Of a stretch of DNA of 64,000 nucleotides, positions 674 through 54,376 are shown piece by piece. The stretch's first letter is position 1; each line of letters opens with the position of its first letter. Under the pieces are notes generated by a model. The model saw nothing but the letters and a program-made list of their open reading frames with translations, made no database searches and was not told where the DNA came from. The position numbers and the translations under genes were made by a program. The stretch covers positions 1 to 64,000 of the forward strand of contig JAVCCE010000023.1 in the NCBI GenBank assembly GCA_030765645.1. The letters are read 5' to 3'. This DNA comes from Candidatus Hinthialibacter antarcticus. Lineage in GTDB: Bacteria; Hinthialibacterota; Hinthialibacteria; Hinthialibacterales; Hinthialibacteraceae.

Positions 674-730
674 TTTCAACTAGTTCAATTTATAAACTTT
701 CTCAAAAATGCTTGATCGTTCGCTGCGAAA

Positions 731-810
731 GGCATGGGTGCAGATCTGGGAGCGCCTGTGCAAAAGGGCCAGAAAGCCCGCATTGAAGCAAGCAGAGATG
801 TACCCATGCC
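731..810 (-). repeat. Family A palindromic repeat, copy 1
   Basis: An 80-bp copy of the dispersed palindrome that recurs at 2873, 21480, 31446, 43048 and (half) 54127. It runs in the opposite orientation to the others. On the minus strand it begins GGCATGGGTACATCTCTG and ends in CACCCATGCC, so the outer arms pair with a few mismatches. The inner part contains the shared GCGGGCTTTC...GGCCCTTTTGCAC hairpin. The flank TTCGCTGCG seen left of other copies is also present here. No long terminal inverted repeats were found around this copy. Confidence 0.85.
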
Positions 811-951
811 AATTAAAGAAATTCTATCTTGTGACTGACTTGCCTTATAAAAACCTTTCTATCGCTTTCTAATATACTCCGCCTGCTTGCGAAATCAATT
901 CACTTTGTTTATTGTGATAAAAGCGCATTATCCTGATTGGTGGAGAGAACC

Positions 952-2796: not shown

Positions 2797-2837
2797 AGAA
2801 AATGGAACCGAATAAATCAGGCTTTGGATTACTAAAT

Positions 2838-3017
2838 GCTAACTCAAAAATACTTAAAAAACCGCTTAAATAGGCATGGTTACAACTCTGCTCGCTTCGG
2901 TGTGGGCTTTCAGGCCCTTTTGCACAGGCGCTCCCAGAGTTACACCCATGCCAAAATTGGCTTCTTAGTCTTTGATATGTTGGAAAGTATTTTCGTAATC
3001 AGTATTTTTGAGTTGGC
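2838..3017 (+). repeat. Family A element, copy 2, with 17-bp inverted arms
   Basis: The 80-bp palindromic core lies at 2873-2952. It is enclosed by arms GCTAACTCAAAAATACT (2838-2854) and its near-perfect reverse complement at 3001-3017, so the whole element is about 180 bp. The arm sequence differs from that of copies 3 and 5. The right-hand flank (AAAATTGGCTTCTTAGTC) is a diverged form of the flank in copies 3, 5 and 6. A 64-codon open frame across it is not a gene. Confidence 0.75.
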
Positions 3018-3040
3018 TTCTAATAAATGACTGATTCAAT

Positions 3041-4697: not shown

Positions 4698-7600
4698 TTA
4701 TCCTAATGGAACCGATGTACTGCCGCCGCCAGGAACAGCAATTTCATCAATTAAACGAAACGTGTTGATCGTCGTATTTAATTGTGCTGTACCACCAGTC
4801 GTATCCAAGACGGTAAAGGTAACGGTAAACAACGTCACATTACCCGTAGCGTCTGTTTCTTGAGTAGATTGGACGGTTACGCGGCCTTGGCTATTGATAA
4901 TATCTGTGGTTGGCGTACCAAAGTTTGCGCCTTGGCTGACCGAATCCGCCCGTAATAACGCCGGATTGTAATCAACCGACACGTTGTATTCAACTAAACC
5001 AGTGGTATTTTTGTCAACAGCAACCACCGCAGTAAACGTTTCGTTGACATTGTAAGGCCCGCCTGCCACTGTAACGCCGAAGTTTTCAACCGGCCCGGGA
5101 GTCGCCGTCGGCGCTGGAGTCGCGGTTGGATCTACGAGTACAGGTGTTGCAGTCGGCTCTATCACTGGCGTCGCTGTTGCATCGACTGGAACAGGAGTTA
5201 CGGTCGCGTCTACAGGAACCGGAGTTACGGTCGCATCCACAGGAACAGGGGTTACAGTTGAGTCAGCAGAAACAGGAGTCGCAGTTGCGTCAACCGAAAC
5301 CGGGGTCACCGTAGCATCCACAGGAACAGGGGTTGCTGTGGGATCAGCCACTACTGGTGTTGCAGTCGGGGTTGCGTCGCCAATTACTGGCGTAGCGGTC
5401 GGATCAGTTATCACTGGCGTAGCAGTTGGTGTCGCATCACCGATCACCGGCGTAGCAGTTGGTGTCGCATCACCGATCACCGGAGTGGCAGTCGGAGTCG
5501 CGTCGCCAATTACTGGCGTTGCTGTCGGAGTTGCATCACCAATCACCGGAGTAGCGGTCGGGTCGGCTGGGACAGGAGTCGGCGTCGGAATTTCGGCGCC
5601 AGTTCCACTTTGAATGATTACGTTATCAATCGCCCACCACCAGTCATTGCCTGCTTCAAACATGATGAATGAAACAACCATTTCGCTGGCGCTGGTCGGG
5701 TTATTGATACTCAGAGCAACGGCTTCGTTGACCATATCGTCATGGAAGTTTGGATCTTCAGGATCAGACGTCCAACGCAACAACTCAACAGGCGCGCCGC
5801 CGTCGAATGAAACTTCAACGCGCACCTTTTGGGCGTCTTCGTCTCTCCAACTTGAATCAAACGACAGGTTCACTGTATTTTCAGTTACTCCCGCCAGAGA
5901 AATCGGAGGCGTACGCAATACGGCCAAATAACCGCCCAGCGATTCGGGATCACCCTTGTCATCCCATTCATCCGGGTCAACGATTGCGACGTTACCAACG
6001 CCCGACGTAAAGCCGGAGCGTTCTTGATCGCCCGCAACTTCCACCCATGCGTCTTTATTCGCAAACGCCCAGCCTTGCCATTCGGTCACACCTTGTTCTG
6101 GGTCAAATAAACCCGGAACGCCGCTACTGTCTACAGCCCAACCAAATGGGGGAACATTTGTCCAATCGGTTCCGTCACCGCCGACTTCGTCGACGAACGG
6201 CCCTAATATAACGCTTTCAAAATCTTCCGTTACTGGCATTGTCAGCGCAGGAATGGGGGTCGCCGTCGGCGGCAGCGGTGTGGCTGTCGGCGGAACCGGC
6301 GTTGATGTCGGCTCCGGCGTCGGCGTAATGGTCGCCGTCGGGATCGGAGTCACAGTCGGCGTCGGCGTCTTGGTCGGGGTTATATCAGCCTTCGCCTGGA
6401 AGGGTGAAAATTCGAGATCAAGCGCTTGCCATTTTTTAAGATCGCCGCTGGGGCCGGTGGGCAAGAACAAAGAGCTGCCCGGCAATGCGGGAACTTCACC
6501 ATATTTATGGACTGTACCGAAGCGGTCTAACATATAGACGCCAACGATTTTTCCTTCGTCGTTGCCGACCAAGGTCAAGTCGCGGGCAAGATCAAATCCG
6601 AAGAACGGTTGATCGTCTAGAATGGTCGGATCAACAAAGTTGTCCGCCATGGTCGTACCAATGGAATTCACGATTTCGATGGCGCCCAAGCGGGTCAACA
6701 ACGCATAGCCTTGACCGTTCGGGAAAATTTCGAGATCAACCGCAATGTTGAAGTTGAAGTACGGCGCATCCACCGAAGCGTCCATCAAACCGCTTGCGGG
6801 GCTTTCCCACGGAGCAGGAACGGGAACGCCCGCTTCTTCAACCATGGTATGAACCGCGCCGAATGCGTCTAAGACCGCATAGCCTTTGGTAACGAGAACG
6901 CGCTTGGTGTATTTGGTCGAAGCAATATTCAAGCGTTCGCTTGGAATCGCGATGGGGGAGAACAGTTTTGATTCATCGACGCCGCTGCCGGAGGCAATGG
7001 CGCTGCGGTTGTTTGAATCATCGACCAATGCCTGGTCCATGTCAACAAAGTCGCTGATAACTTCGAGGTCGCGAGCAACCGGGAAGTTAGCGAAGTAAGG
7101 CGCCGTCTTTTTGAAGGCGGAATCCGTACCGGCATAGTCTTGCATGTAAACAGGCTTGAAGCCAACGATGTTTTGGAACTGGTCGATGCCAGCCGTGCTC
7201 AATGCAAGTGAAACCGGCGTTTGTGATTCGTAATTTTTGACTTGTGCGACATTGGTCGGCGCGGTGTTCTTTTGGTACACAGCCAACAGGTCGCCGTTAT
7301 TGATATAGTGAACGCCGCCGAATGCATCCAAGACATAAAGACCCTGGAAGCCATAGGTGGTTTGGCGCCAGTCAACCGCGATTTCGAGGTCGCGGGCGAT
7401 AGCGTCGTCGCCGCCAGCGAATTTCACTGAGTCAGGCGCGATATCCGTTAATGTGAACGGGAAGTAAGGCAAACCGACTTGGTCGGCTTGTGCGCGGGTC
7501 GAGTTAAATTCAAGCACGGAATTGAAGTAATCAACTTGCGGGCCGTTGCCCGGCGTTGAGACGCCGATGCCTGGTTCGATCAATGCGCTGCCCAGGCTGG

Positions 7601-9239
7601 GGCCGGTAACAATGTTCCCGGGGCCTTGGACGGCTAAAGAGTGTGAACCCGCGAATTTATCTAAGGCGTACACGCCTGTCAAACGACCATTTTCGTTTGC
7701 CACGGTTTCGATGTCGCGCATCGAATCAAAGCCCAGATAGAACAGGCTCAGGGTTACGGGCATTCCATTGCGGTCAACTTCAAACAATTTGTTCAAACCA
7801 ATCGGAAGCGAAGGATCGCTGACCGTCTTGGCGAGACCCATACTGTCAAAGCCGATTGCGCCGTCAACCAAATCGGGATTCAACTTGGCCGATTGTGAGC
7901 CGCCGCCGTCAAAACGCCCAGCAGGCGTTTCGGGGCCGAAGCCGATGGGCCAGGCATTGCCGAATTTCATCGCGATCCAGTCATAAGCCAAGGCTTGAGG
8001 ACTGCCGCCGGATGTACGGCGAAAAGCGGTTTCAAAGAACTGACCAACGCCAATATCATCGGTGCGTTCGGATTCGTAAACTTTGACGCCGTCTTGCCAA
8101 CCTTGGATCAACGACATGCCGTCGGCCGGGTCATCATCAATAATGACGATGCGAATCACGACCCATTCACCAGAAGCGCCGGTGCGGGTGTCGTTCTTGG
8201 TTCCATTGCCGTTGCGACTGTCATTGGTTTGACCAAATTCCCAACCAGCGGGGCCGTCGCCGCTTTCAGCGACATGGCCTAGCGTCCAATAAGGAACGCC
8301 GTCTGCGGCTGCGCCGTCATCAAGGCGAATATCCAAGACGGATTTTTCGCTGGTGGTGCCGAGGTCTTTAATGCGCATCACCAAAGTCATGCGCCCGTTC
8401 CAGTTGTTATAAATATCGTTAGCAAACGTATAGCCAGGCGCACTGTTTGAAGGACCGGAGTTGTCATCAATCCGGTTCCAAACGCCGCCGACCTGGGCGC
8501 CTAACGAAAAGTCGATGCTTTCGTATTCCAGGTTGCCTGCTTCCTGCCCCATCCAATCAACGCCGCCATTGGCGATGATGGTTTCAGGCAGCACATCGCC
8601 GTTGTAGACAAAGTCCCAACCAGCGGTGTCCGACAGGCCGTTTGGCGTCGCAGGGCCCTCGCCGGGGCCATAGGCTGACGACAAAGAGAAACGCAACCAA
8701 CTGAATTGGTAGGTATTGACCGGGCTGGCGGAAAGAATGGTCCCGCTTTCGGGAACCACAGGGCCGTCAGCGCCCGCGAGTTGAATGCGGGAGTCATAGA
8801 CCTTGGCGCCGTCGCGGTAACCGATGATTCGCAGGTTGGAATCAGCGGTATTTTGGTCTACCACAACAAGGCGAAGCACGGTCGATTCATTGACGCCGCC
8901 CGTCGCAACTGTTCCAGCGATACTGGAATAGCCCGACTCTTCGGCGTCATTCGCCGCAAACGTCCACCCTTGCGAGGTTTGCCCCAAAACCCAGGGAATG
9001 CTGACGCCGCCCTTATTAAAGGTCAACGTCACGGTAGACGTGGCGTCGGCGACCCCAAGATCGGTGGCCTTCAACACCATGGTCATTTGACCGTTCCAAC
9101 TTGCGAGACCAGTCGGAACCGTCAAATCCCCAGCCGGAGGATCGTTAAGAGATAGATCCCAATCCTGGGCCAATGCGGGGAAAGCAAAACTGCAAACTAA
9201 CAGCAACGGAAGTACACACGCTACGATCCAATTCTTCAT
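4698..9239 (-). CDS. Giant secreted modular protein with C-terminal cohesin-like domain
   Basis: A protein of 1513 residues from ATG 9239, which begins a clear Sec signal peptide (MKNWIVACVLPLLLVCSF... cut near ALA-Q). An upstream ATG at 9335 with a strong GAGGGGG site would add 32 charged residues before the signal, so the start is open. In order: two related beta-sandwich, LamG-like repeats (residues about 25-420, each with an NGQMTMVLK/NGRMTLVMR strand); a series of repeats with the pattern ARDLE...GLYVLDAFGGVH (about 480-940) suggesting a propeller-like domain; a Thr/Pro linker; a jelly-roll-type domain with a WAFANKDAWVEV segment; a long PTATPV-repeat linker; and a C-terminal cohesin-type domain (VDYNPALLRADSV). 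Cohesin domains bind dockerins, so a cell-surface or extracellular scaffold role is inferred. No dockerin gene is visible nearby. Confidence 0.85.
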   Translation of the reverse strand: MKNWIVACVLPLLLVCSFAFPALAQDWDLSLNDPPAGDLTVPTGLASWNGQMTMVLKATDLGVADATSTVTLTFNKGGVSIPWVLGQTSQGWTFAANDAEESGYSSIAGTVATGGVNESTVLRLVVVDQNTADSNLRIIGYRDGAKVYDSRIQLAGADGPVVPESGTILSASPVNTYQFSWLRFSLSSAYGPGEGPATPNGLSDTAGWDFVYNGDVLPETIIANGGVDWMGQEAGNLEYESIDFSLGAQVGGVWNRIDDNSGPSNSAPGYTFANDIYNNWNGRMTLVMRIKDLGTTSEKSVLDIRLDDGAAADGVPYWTLGHVAESGDGPAGWEFGQTNDSRNGNGTKNDTRTGASGEWVVIRIVIIDDDPADGMSLIQGWQDGVKVYESERTDDIGVGQFFETAFRRTSGGSPQALAYDWIAMKFGNAWPIGFGPETPAGRFDGGGSQSAKLNPDLVDGAIGFDSMGLAKTVSDPSLPIGLNKLFEVDRNGMPVTLSLFYLGFDSMRDIETVANENGRLTGVYALDKFAGSHSLAVQGPGNIVTGPSLGSALIEPGIGVSTPGNGPQVDYFNSVLEFNSTRAQADQVGLPYFPFTLTDIAPDSVKFAGGDDAIARDLEIAVDWRQTTYGFQGLYVLDAFGGVHYINNGDLLAVYQKNTAPTNVAQVKNYESQTPVSLALSTAGIDQFQNIVGFKPVYMQDYAGTDSAFKKTAPYFANFPVARDLEVISDFVDMDQALVDDSNNRSAIASGSGVDESKLFSPIAIPSERLNIASTKYTKRVLVTKGYAVLDAFGAVHTMVEEAGVPVPAPWESPASGLMDASVDAPYFNFNIAVDLEIFPNGQGYALLTRLGAIEIVNSIGTTMADNFVDPTILDDQPFFGFDLARDLTLVGNDEGKIVGVYMLDRFGTVHKYGEVPALPGSSLFLPTGPSGDLKKWQALDLEFSPFQAKADITPTKTPTPTVTPIPTATITPTPEPTSTPVPPTATPLPPTATPIPALTMPVTEDFESVILGPFVDEVGGDGTDWTNVPPFGWAVDSSGVPGLFDPEQGVTEWQGWAFANKDAWVEVAGDQERSGFTSGVGNVAIVDPDEWDDKGDPESLGGYLAVLRTPPISLAGVTENTVNLSFDSSWRDEDAQKVRVEVSFDGGAPVELLRWTSDPEDPNFHDDMVNEAVALSINNPTSASEMVVSFIMFEAGNDWWWAIDNVIIQSGTGAEIPTPTPVPADPTATPVIGDATPTATPVIGDATPTATPVIGDATPTATPVIGDATPTATPVITDPTATPVIGDATPTATPVVADPTATPVPVDATVTPVSVDATATPVSADSTVTPVPVDATVTPVPVDATVTPVPVDATATPVIEPTATPVLVDPTATPAPTATPGPVENFGVTVAGGPYNVNETFTAVVAVDKNTTGLVEYNVSVDYNPALLRADSVSQGANFGTPTTDIINSQGRVTVQSTQETDATGNVTLFTVTFTVLDTTGGTAQLNTTINTFRLIDEIAVPGGGSTSVPLG
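5100..5600 (-). repeat. Intragenic tandem repeat encoding PTATPV-type linker
   Basis: Inside the giant gene, DNA units of about 33 bp (protein unit GDATPTATPVI) and shorter units (VDATVTPVP type) repeat at least a dozen times. The central units at 5360-5560 are nearly identical at DNA level, which allows slippage, so linker length may vary between strains or be misassembled. The predicted linker is extended and probably O-glycosylated by analogy with Thr/Pro linkers of secreted enzymes. Confidence 0.85.
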
Positions 9240-9335
9240 GGGGCTATTTTCACCTCTTTTGAAGTCGTCCGCTCGAACCCAACGCATCCACGAGGAGTCG
9301 TAATCTTTTCGAATCGTTGAGACCAGATTGTTCAT

Positions 9336-9979
9336 TTGGCCCCCCTCTGTGAAGCAGCCAGTTCTACGCCAAAACGGGCGCATCGTTTGTGTTAAACAAA
9401 AGAATGGACAATTATAATACTAGATTAAGGAATTTGACGCCAATGTCAAGAAAAAAAAGGGACTTATCCACATTTTTTCGTCATGTGCAGCCTATCAAGG
9501 CTCGTACCTAATCATTCTTTTGCTTCATAAAAATCTCTTCTTATAAAGCGTTGTCGTCAAAGCCCCTGCTTATTCACTACGATTTTCCTGTTGATTTTAT
9601 CGAACACTCCGCCGCGACTGCTACGCACAAATGGCTGCTGCGCAACAAGTTGCTTGAGAGGCGTCAGTAAAATCTACGGGTACTTCCAAACCACACACTT
9701 TGCCAGTGCTCCGGCAGGGTAATTAAAGCGTTACTATAATAAACCCAAAATGATAAGAAGCAAGTTCTATTCCCTGGGCGCATTCAGTTCTATACTTTGC
9801 GCTCCGTCCCTACAAGGTTCGGTTCAAATAAAAGAATCTCAAGCAATTTCTTAACATTTTCACTGTTTATCGTGCATTATAAGGCGCGAAGAACATGCAA
9901 CTTATTGCAAAAACTCGCTGGACTTTTTTTTAAAATTCGGCAATATTGTCCCATCACTTACCAATAAAAGGGGAAAACC
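9336..9979. other. Long intergenic region between divergent genes
   Basis: About 640 bases without a convincing gene. It must hold the promoters for the giant secreted gene (minus) and the GT-C gene (plus). On the minus strand a TATTATAAT stretch near 9413-9421 and a TTGAC/GTCAA dyad (9433-9448) could be promoter and operator, but spacing is not ideal. A single perfect DnaA-box sequence TTATCCACA lies at 9464-9472. No cluster of boxes or AT-rich unwinding element was seen with it. No tRNA or known small RNA was recognised. Confidence 0.4.
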
Positions 9980-19060: not shown

Positions 19061-19170
19061 TGTAGTGGTAGCCAGAATTCTGTGCGGATTGAGTTTTCAT
19101 CGCTGTATCTATCGCTGAGCCCTACGGGCGCGCTTTTCGTTCATACTTTTGACAAACGCTCTAGAACAGA
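19061..19170 (+). repeat. Repeat family B, copy 1 (upstream of GT2 gene)
   Basis: A stretch of about 110 bp that recurs at 31234-31380 in reverse orientation. Shared blocks include CTGTGCGGATTRAGTTTTC, CTGTATCTATCGCTG, GGGCGCGCTTT and TGACAAACSCTCTAG. It ends about 20 bases before the GTG start of the GT2 gene at 19189. The other full copy also ends directly before a GT2 gene, in the same relative orientation. A short open frame across it (18926-19192) is not considered real. Confidence 0.75.
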
Positions 19171-21326: not shown

Positions 21327-21402
21327 GGTGGCTGTAGCTCAGGGGCAGAGCATCGGATTGTGGCTCCGAATGTCGTGGGTTCAAATCCCATCAGCCACCC
21401 CA
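21327..21402 (+). tRNA. trnH: tRNA-His (anticodon GTG)
   Basis: A full cloverleaf. The acceptor stem is GTGGCTG/CAGCCAC, with the extra G at position -1 (21327) facing discriminator C73, the identity signal of histidine tRNA. The D arm contains AGCTCAGGGGCAGAGC, the anticodon loop reads TTGTGGC on a TCGGA/TCCGA stem, and the T arm contains GGGTTCAAATCCC. CCA is encoded at 21400-21402. A family A element is inserted 28 bases downstream. Confidence 0.97.
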
Positions 21403-21430
21403 TTTTCCCCTACCAATACCTTCTAATTTA

Positions 21431-21654
21431 GGTTCTTCCGAAAACTGGGTACTTTTTTATAAACTGATTCGCTGCACGCGGCATGGGTACAACTCTGCTC
21501 GCTTCAGTGCGGGCTATCAGGCCCGTTTGCACAGGCGCTTCCAGAGTTGCACCCATGCCTCATTTGGTTTGTCCGTTTTTGACAAGCCGGAATACGTTTT
21601 CCTAAACAAAATCATTGCATTCATCAATGTAGGTACTCACTTACCGGATGAACC
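21431..21654 (+). mobile_element. Family A MITE-like element, copy 3, with 8-bp target duplication
   Basis: A 224-bp element. The ends GGTTCTTCCGAAAACTGGGT (left) and the reverse complement of the right end (GGTTCATCCGGTAAGTGAGT) match at 17 of the first 22 positions, forming terminal inverted repeats. The palindromic core lies at 21480-21559. The element is flanked by perfect direct repeats CTAATTTA at 21423-21430 and 21655-21662, as left by transposition. It contains no gene, so it must be moved by a transposase encoded elsewhere. Copy 5 at 42990 shares both ends and the interior. Confidence 0.85.
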
Positions 21655-21787
21655 CTAATTTAATTTCTCAAATCAAAATGCTTCGGGGTTAGGTTGCGCT
21701 TGTCTCTGTCGCGGCTTATTGCCGCTGGCTCCGAAAGCCGCTCCACCCAATCCCCTGCGACATTTCTTATCTGCATTGGTGAAACGA

Positions 21788-31233: not shown

Positions 31234-31380
31234 ATCCTAGAGGGTTTGTCATAAATATGTGCGTAAAGCGCGCCCGCAGCCGACCTAGCCTACGGCTAAC
31301 AGGCTGCCGCAGGCAGGGGCCCAGCGATAGATACAGTTACGAAAACTTAATCCGCACAGTATTTTGGCAACCACTATTAT
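31234..31380 (-). repeat. Repeat family B, copy 2 (upstream of GT2 gene), with internal insertion
   Basis: On the minus strand it reads TAGTGGTTGCC...CTGTGCGGATTAAGTTTTC...CTGTATCTATCGCTG, then about 45 bases with a CCTGCCTGCGGCAG palindrome, then GGGCGCGCTTTACG...TGACAAACCCTCTAGGA. Apart from the 45-base insertion it matches copy 1 closely. It ends six bases before the ATG of the GT2 gene at 31228 and supplies its ribosome-binding site. Confidence 0.75.
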
Positions 31381-31411: not shown

Positions 31412-31660
31412 CTATCTCATATATACATGATCTTTCGCTGCGTGTGGCATGGGTATAACTCTGCTCGCTTCAGTGCAGCTCCGCCCTTTTGCACAGGCGC
31501 TCCCAGAGTTGCACCCATGCCTGAATAGAGACTTTACGACTGGAGCCCGGGGAGGGAGAATCCTGCCTGCCGCAGGCACGGCTCCCGACGAGCCGCGTAA
31601 TATCGAAACGTTTTCAAATTATCACGGCTCCTCGCTATGACACAGATGTTTATGAGATAG
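31412..31660 (+). repeat. Family A element, copy 4, with 10-bp perfect outer arms
   Basis: The core at 31446-31521 is four bases shorter than other copies because the inner hairpin reads GCAGCTCCGCCC. The outer stem is nearly perfect. Arms CTATCTCATA (31412-31421) and TATGAGATAG (31651-31660) pair exactly but differ in sequence from the ends of copies 3 and 5. Between the core and the right arm lies another CCTGCCTGCCGCAGGCA palindrome. The right arm stops three bases before the end of the DUF1223 gene. Confidence 0.65.
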
Positions 31661-42989: not shown

Positions 42990-43221
42990 GGTTCTTCCGT
43001 AAATTGGATACTTTTTTTATAAATTGAATTAAGATTTCGCTGCATGTGGCATGGGTACAACTCTGCTCGCTTCAGTGCGGGCTTTCAGGCCCTTATGCAC
43101 AGGCGCTCCCAGAGTTCCACCCATACCTGATTGGTTTGTCAATTTTTGAAATACCGGAGCCTGTTTCTGAATAAATATTATGGCCATCCATCAATGTAAG
43201 TACTCACTTACCGGATGAACC
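42990..43221 (+). mobile_element. Family A MITE-like element, copy 5
   Basis: A 232-bp element with the palindromic core at 43048-43127. Left end GGTTCTTCCGTAAATTGGAT and right end (reverse complement GGTTCATCCGGTAAGTGAGT) match at 18 of 24 positions. The interior flanks match copy 3 (GATTGGTTTGTC and ATCAATGTAAGTACTCACTT). No 8-bp direct repeat is seen at the ends: left flank ATTTTTTT and right flank CAAAAAAA are complementary instead. It carries no gene. Its left end provides GGAAG ten bases before the DUF6933 start on the minus strand. Confidence 0.8.
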
Positions 43222-48436: not shown

Positions 48437-48967
48437 CCCCCTGGCGCTTGAGGCGCCTTCCCCCCTTAAAAAAAGGGGGGCTTTTCCGCAATGTGTTTTA
48501 TATAAAACATCCTGTACTTCATCCGCCTAAAAGTTACCAAAATACAAATATAACAAAATTTCTCTACTTTAATGGCTGGGTGGCAAGGGCAAGGCGGCGC
48601 AAAGCGACGGCAGCCCTTGAGTAAATCATGATCCCCCCTGGCGCTTGCAGCGCCTTCCCCCCTTAAAAAAAGGGGGGCTTTTCCGCAATGTGTTTTATAT
48701 AAAACATCCTGTGATTCAGCCGCCTAAAAGCTACCAAAATACAAATAGAACAAAAATTCTCTACTTTAATGGCTGGGTGGTAAGGGGAAGGCGGCGCAAA
48801 GCGACGACAACCCTTGAGTAAATCATGACCCCCCTGGCGCTTGAGGCGCCTTCCCCCCTTAAAAAAAGGGGGGCTTTTCCGCAATGTGTTTTATATAAAA
48901 TATCCTGTGTTTCAGCCACCTAAAAGCTACCAAAATACAAATATAACAAAAATTCTCTACTTTAATG
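48437..48967. repeat. Tandem array of ~196-bp repeats (2.7 copies)
   Basis: The unit starts with a CCCCTGGCGCTTGAGGCGCC palindrome, a CCCCCCTTAAAAAAAGGGGGG hairpin and CTTTTCCGCAATGTGTTTT, and continues through TACCAAAATACAAATA and TTCTCTACTTTAATGGC to a GAGTAAATCATGA end. Starts of the CTTTTCCGC block at 48481, 48678 and 48874 give periods of 197 and 196 bp. The third copy stops after about 138 bp. Copies differ at only a few positions, so duplication is recent. It lies between the toxin gene and the Fe/Mn-SOD gene and contains no gene. Confidence 0.9.
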
Positions 48968-49094
48968 TTGACATTTACTGTTAAATAAAGGAAAATATTT
49001 ATAAAGTAGCGGGGACCAAACGCCTCACCCTAAGCGGAAACACATCCCCGCCTCTCTCAGATCAGAAAATCAAACACTTTTTGGAGGACATACC

Positions 49095-54086: not shown

Positions 54087-54126
54087 TGGTATCGCTCTTT
54101 AACTATCTGAAGTCTTCTCAAAAAAG

Positions 54127-54159
54127 ATGCACAGGCGCTCCCAGAGTTGCACCCATGCC
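54127..54159 (+). repeat. Family A repeat, right half only (copy 6)
   Basis: Only TGCACAGGCGCTCCCAGAGT through CACCCATGCC remains, the right arm of the palindrome, followed by the conserved flank GAATTGGTTTTCAATTTTTA. The left half is missing, so the copy is truncated. It lies between the divergent queE and miaB genes. Confidence 0.8.
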
Positions 54160-54376
54160 AGAATTGGTTTTCAATTTTTAATGAATGTTAATACCATTAT
54201 CGCAATCATTGTTATTGAGATGGTTTTTAACTTTCACCATTTTGGCGTGTCAGTCAAAGCAAGGCAAGCGTAAGCCCGCTCCCTCGCGTTATGGACGAAA
54301 GGACATTATTATAATAGTTTCTGCACCGAATCGGCATCCAAGCGATCTAAATCAAATTGAATAAAAAAGCGAAAAT

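Follow-up and report, generated by a model that had tools for sequence, protein, structure and literature searches.

Among MITEs linked to the ISL3 family, a 179-bp MITE of ISMac21 has been described in Methanosarcina acetivorans (table row 179, 6, 22, 7, where the first two values are length and copy number; PMC3852290), and Tn7546, a transposon of the ISL3 family, carries GGGTCTTCGGA as its inverted repeat, with AAAATAAG as an 8-bp duplication (PMC9782665). Here we analyse a short element from Candidatus Hinthialibacter antarcticus, found in a 64,000-nucleotide window (the whole stretch of DNA studied) on contig C23 of a 5.15-Mb assembly of 78 contigs, together with the family to which it belongs, hereafter class A. 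Like the ISMac21 MITE, it is a short element that can be assigned to an ISL3 partner, but its family has an estimated ~150 copies instead of 6, shows 8-bp duplications and has a mosaic interior that appears to come from another MITE (PMC3852290). Its ends (GGTTCTTCCG) are similar to those of Tn7546, and both have AT-rich 8-bp duplications (PMC9782665), whereas class A, unlike ISL3 insertion sequences (IS) and transposons such as Tn7546, lacks a transposase gene. The hairpin that it contains recalls REP/BIME/REPIN sequences in that palindromic repeats number in the hundreds per genome, with some of them in tandem pairs and one pair near a Y1 gene (PMC3116915, PMC2817692); by contrast, the core is here 80 bp long, class A has DDE-type ends and duplications, and the proximity to Y1 holds at one gene only. 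TIMEs are likewise non-autonomous and mosaic in make-up, but they derive from Tn3, whereas class A seems to consist of ISL3 ends around a MITE of another kind (PMC4133298). ISL3-linked MITEs as such are on record, but its copy number and nested anatomy are less usual in the open-access literature, itself a weak guide to absence.

Two perfect 8-bp copies of CTAATTTA bracket a 224-bp element whose ends, GGTTCTTCCGAAAACTGGGTAC and the reverse-complemented GGTTCATCCGGTAAGTGAGTAC, are identical at 17 of 22 positions; direct reading of the sequence thereby bears out the original prediction of a perfect target-site duplication around an element with inverted ends. A tRNA-His gene (21328-21402), the only match in an Rfam search of the window, ends ~30 bp upstream. 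Open reading frames of at least 150 aa are absent from the element, which at 224 bp is too short for a transposase gene, and a search of a plasmid collection gave no match. Immediately to its right, positions 21680-21760 belong to another repeat (TTCGGGGTTAGGTTGCGC...CCGCTCCACCCAATCCCCTGCG) that occurs at ~25 places in the genome and also flanks the MITE at C11:245681. The element and its parts are as follows:

21423-21430, no strand: left target-site duplication CTAATTTA, from the sequence; the 8-bp length is a property of the family.
21431-21654, plus strand: ISL3-type MITE of class A, 224 bp, from the sequence and family comparison.
21431-21456, plus strand: left end, comprising the terminal inverted repeat and the ISL3-like left end (IS left end GGTTCTTCCGGTATTTGAGTACTTTT), from comparison with the IS ends.
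21461-21602, plus strand: interior common to class B MITEs, including the hairpin core; bounds approximate.
21480-21559, plus strand: 80-bp near-palindromic hairpin core, GGCATGGGT...GCACCCATGCC, from the fold of the whole element (z = -7.7) and covariation across diverse cores.
21603-21654, plus strand: right end from the ISL3 right end, comprising the last transposase codons and the terminal repeat.
21633-21654, minus strand: right terminal inverted repeat (GGTTCATCCGGTAAGTGAGTAC).
21655-21662, no strand: right target-site duplication CTAATTTA, from the sequence.

We searched for further copies in 1.59 Mb, or 31% of the genome, in stretches partly chosen around known copies and hence not random. 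This partly selected sample contains 161 cores and, among class A copies, 41 in which both ends are present. Genome-wide, the whole element gave at least 44 scored matches plus many unscored candidates, and a pattern for ISL3-type ends gave 322 matches against 22 for its control, which suggests ~150 class A copies in this genome. Class A copies range from 191 to 263 bp, with a median of 234. Among the 39 full-length copies with both flanks, the 8-bp duplication is perfect in 17 and has at most one mismatch in 24, whereas perfect flanking repeats of 4-7 or 9-13 bp occur in none; when the left flank of one copy is compared with the right flank of another, only 7 of 1482 combinations match. The 8-bp duplications are not due to chance, and they are AT-rich (88% A+T versus 59% in the flanking DNA). 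Short, gene-less, with terminal inverted repeats and a duplication of fixed length, class A has the hallmarks of a MITE, and the prediction that DNA transposition had moved a non-autonomous element extends well beyond the single copy for which it was made. More than one mismatch separates the duplications of 15 of the 39 copies, which implies that these are old or recombined. The window holds a second full copy:

42990-43221, plus strand: second full class A copy; its flanking 8-mers match at 0 of 8 positions.

This copy was possibly rearranged after insertion. Its flanks, ATTTTTTT and CAAAAAAA, come close to being inverted repeats of each other instead of direct ones, which an inversion between MITE copies may explain.

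The family is almost certainly a set of MITEs mobilised in trans by the ISL3-family DDE transposase of a multi-copy IS in the same genome, with ISL3 ends that enclose an older, hairpin-bearing MITE of class B. What we observed comprises ends common to MITE and IS, duplications of 8 bp, an empty site at a paralogous position, matching duplications around the IS itself and, in several class A copies, the remnant of a class B end. A profile search of the genome with PF01610 (DDE_Tnp_ISL3) detected a transposase C-terminus at C37:4-216 with 76.6 bits, over the cut-off, as well as shorter pieces at the edges of contigs C30 and C77 and a separate, diverged fragment on C11; NF033550 also matched the transposase piece, but truncation of the gene at the contig edge kept the score under the cut-off of this profile. 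The transposase C-terminus on C37 continues without a gap into CATCCATCAATGTAGGTACTCATTTACCGGATGAACC, the right end of the MITE, and its stop codon lies within the terminal repeat. IS and MITE right ends have a mean identity of 84% over the last 50 bp (39 copies), while at the left end the agreement extends over ~25 bp only, with 77% identity over 22 bp and variation inside the repeat. Three identical IS left ends occur at the edges of contigs C68, C6 and C66 (GGTTCTTCCGGTATTTGAGTAC...ATGTCCACGAGTTTACTATATCATG), and the reading frame in ATGTCCACGAGTTTACTATATCATG, MSTSLLYH, corresponds to the start of full-length ISL3 relatives. The duplications of the IS rejoin across assembly gaps as perfect, AT-rich 8-mers, ATAAATCT for C66/C37 and ATAATTTT for C6/C30, and because of these matching flanks the two contig pairs would each border one IS copy. 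No full IS was found in the assembly with PF01610 or NF033550: the transposase is seen in pieces only and ~1 kb from the middle is missing, as expected for an identical multi-copy repeat. The IS, despite this absent middle, would be autonomous, and its transposase would be currently active and act on the MITEs in trans.

ISL3 relatives in other bacteria share 60-70% identity with this transposase over its C-terminal 84 residues, measure ~1.25-1.37 kb and have ends that begin with GGTTCATCCG. Perfect 8-bp duplications flank three of them: L168 (ATAAATAG), where the transposase gene is interrupted by masked bases and stops, and L175 (AGATTTCC) and L180 (AGAATTGT), where it is open. An IS with GGTTCWTCCG ends and 8-bp duplications, which the original prediction proposed to look for, is thus present in relatives and, in this genome, can be pieced together from contig edges. 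The same prediction had named IS66 and IS1595 among the families that leave 8-bp duplications, with no choice of transposase. Target-site duplications of 8 bp are common to several IS families, and some IS6 ends begin with GGTTC, so that a mover from IS66, IS1595 or IS6 could be envisaged on these features; we give it hardly any credence, as both MITE ends match an IS of the same genome whose right end encodes an ISL3 transposase C-terminus, and the GGTTCATCCG start is common to the ISL3 relatives. The match of the ends, the PF01610 piece, the 8-bp duplications of the IS and its relatives and the ends of Tn7546 all lead us to assign the mover to ISL3. In the mechanism that we propose, the transposase would recognise the ends common to MITE and IS, starting with GGTTCWTCCG, the MITE would insert into an AT-rich 8-bp target, and gap repair would duplicate these 8 bp.

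An uninserted state of the target is available for one class A copy, C27:56942-57176, which sits inside another repeat of the same genome. Paralogues of this repeat on C63, C64 and C35 lack the insertion and have the target TTTATTTG once; others, including those on C14 and C29, have a one-base variant of it at the uninserted site. The expectation of an empty site with a single target copy thus holds at a paralogous site, whereas no orthologous empty allele was found for the copy at 21423-21662, around which relatives match over the tRNA-His gene only. For class B and for bare cores, we found no empty sites in the partly selected 1.59 Mb. Open frames of at least 150 codons span only 10 of 38 reconstructed empty sites, as against 89% of random positions, and surviving copies are therefore mostly intergenic. 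Several copies lie in the T-tracts of intrinsic terminators, yet a preference for terminators was rejected, the frequency (6/39) showing no clear excess over AT-rich intergenic controls (20/200). The repeat that hosts the MITE at C27:56942 forms a class of its own, class D, with ends CAATGTCATTGACTTAAG..., present on contigs C14, C63, C64, C35, C29 and others (e.g. L126, L108) and also found inserted within hairpin cores.

Class A is a mosaic in which similarity to the IS covers ~25 bp at the left end and ~50 bp at the right end, while the interior, including the hairpin, is common to class B. Class B MITEs measure ~160-190 bp and have different ends, GAAGCCATCTCAAAA, of which there are 63 genome-wide versus 1 in the control. 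Many class B copies have TA on both sides, which is compatible with a 2-bp TA duplication and equally with TA being part of the inverted repeat, as TA is its own reverse complement. We looked in the partly selected 1.59 Mb for class B ends that lack a counterpart and run into a transposase gene, as those of a partner IS would, and saw none. The original prediction had treated the repeats as one family; instead, MITEs of two types, each with its own ends, carry the same core, which also occurs bare. The window contains, besides the class A copies:

2834-3020, plus strand: class B copy with the same core and ends (G)CTAACTCAAAA / TTTTGAGTTGGCTTC; left bound approximate.
54109-54250, plus strand: partial class B copy lacking the left half of the hairpin; bounds approximate.
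730-811, minus strand: hairpin core with a left end of class B at its other side; either an inverted core or a rearranged copy.
31446-31521, plus strand: variant hairpin core with no recognisable right end.

How the two classes are related can be read from copies that preserve both kinds of ends. In four class A copies from the 1.59 Mb and in two more at the edges of contigs, a left end of class B (TAGAAGC[C/T]...) is still present precisely 40 bp ahead of the core, the spacing found in class B; C11:322832, a class B copy, is not one of these four. Both MITE ends do come from the IS, as they would if class A had arisen from the IS by a simple internal deletion and diverged later, but the interior shared with differently ended MITEs and the class B left end kept 40 bp from the core in several copies make such an origin very unlikely. 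On these sequence comparisons, class A appears to be not simply an internally deleted IS but ISL3 ends enclosing an older class B MITE. The simplest order would be hairpin, then class B, then class A: a class B MITE would have acquired ISL3 ends on its outside, and the inner class B end would later have disappeared from most copies.

The 80-bp hairpin is found in class A, in class B and also bare, without MITE ends. A half-core pattern matched 220 times forward and 216 times in reverse genome-wide (0 in the control), which is not a copy count because both arms of one hairpin can match; a central-core pattern gave 260 matches in the genome. Across 17 diverse but related cores, 92% of cells have standard pairs, and two-sided change affects 12 pairs against a shuffled mean of 6.7, with none of 500 shuffles as high. 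In the outer helix, 44 cells changed on both sides and only 2 on one side, with hardly any G-U intermediates, a pattern that resembles the copying of palindrome arms from a template more than it does gradual RNA compensation, although the choice between the two is beyond 17 related sequences. A pattern search of 13 further genomes of the class, including five from the same family, detected no core, nor did a DNA search of 40 relatives, and at present sampling the hairpin burst appears lineage-specific.

A different view would make this core the spreading unit, REP/BIME-like and moved by a Y1 (RAYT-type) transposase, with the ISL3 ends being incidental. Cores do occur bare, lacking MITE ends, they fold into a hairpin whose arms covary, and the genome has three Y1_Tnp genes, one of which, apparently frameshifted, is followed by two bare cores. 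However, class A copies have ends and duplications of their own, explained by ISL3 transposition, at about one core per 10-12 kb, chance could place two of them beside a single Y1 gene out of three, and there are none within 1.5 kb of the other two. As an account of the family, this is improbable, although Y1 may move the bare copies. More tentatively, the hairpin, whose centre is conserved and whose arms compensate each other's changes, could be a module in its own right, present bare and in two MITE families with unrelated ends, and shaped by copying of palindromes at the DNA level or by some unknown form of mobility directed by the hairpin, and not by RNA selection; this is possible, but we consider it doubtful.

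Other repeats accompany these elements. An apparently frameshifted Y1 gene is flanked by a repeat, GGGGAGGGCGAACCCTGCCTGC...GAGCCGCATTAG (L264, C1:146500-147350), also present near 31560 in the window and apparently another MITE-like family. Within the window, positions 48437-49026 contain a 197-bp unit three times in tandem (93% and 74% identity to the first), and 19063-19164 and 31237-31376 form an inverted pair of ~100 bp, 84-87% complementary and 12 kb apart, from yet another repeat family. The 27/33-bp repeats at 5116-5588, within a 1561-aa minus-strand ORF (4698-9383), have lengths divisible by three and probably encode a repetitive protein stretch.

With the assignment to ISL3, the mover of the element is settled, and what was one observation becomes a family whose many insertion sites can be checked. 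The nested build suggests how one MITE may become the cargo of another by gaining new ends, which would offer a route out of dependence on one transposase. The hairpin common to both classes is a case in which the spread of palindromic repeats, and the way in which their arms stay complementary, can be tested.
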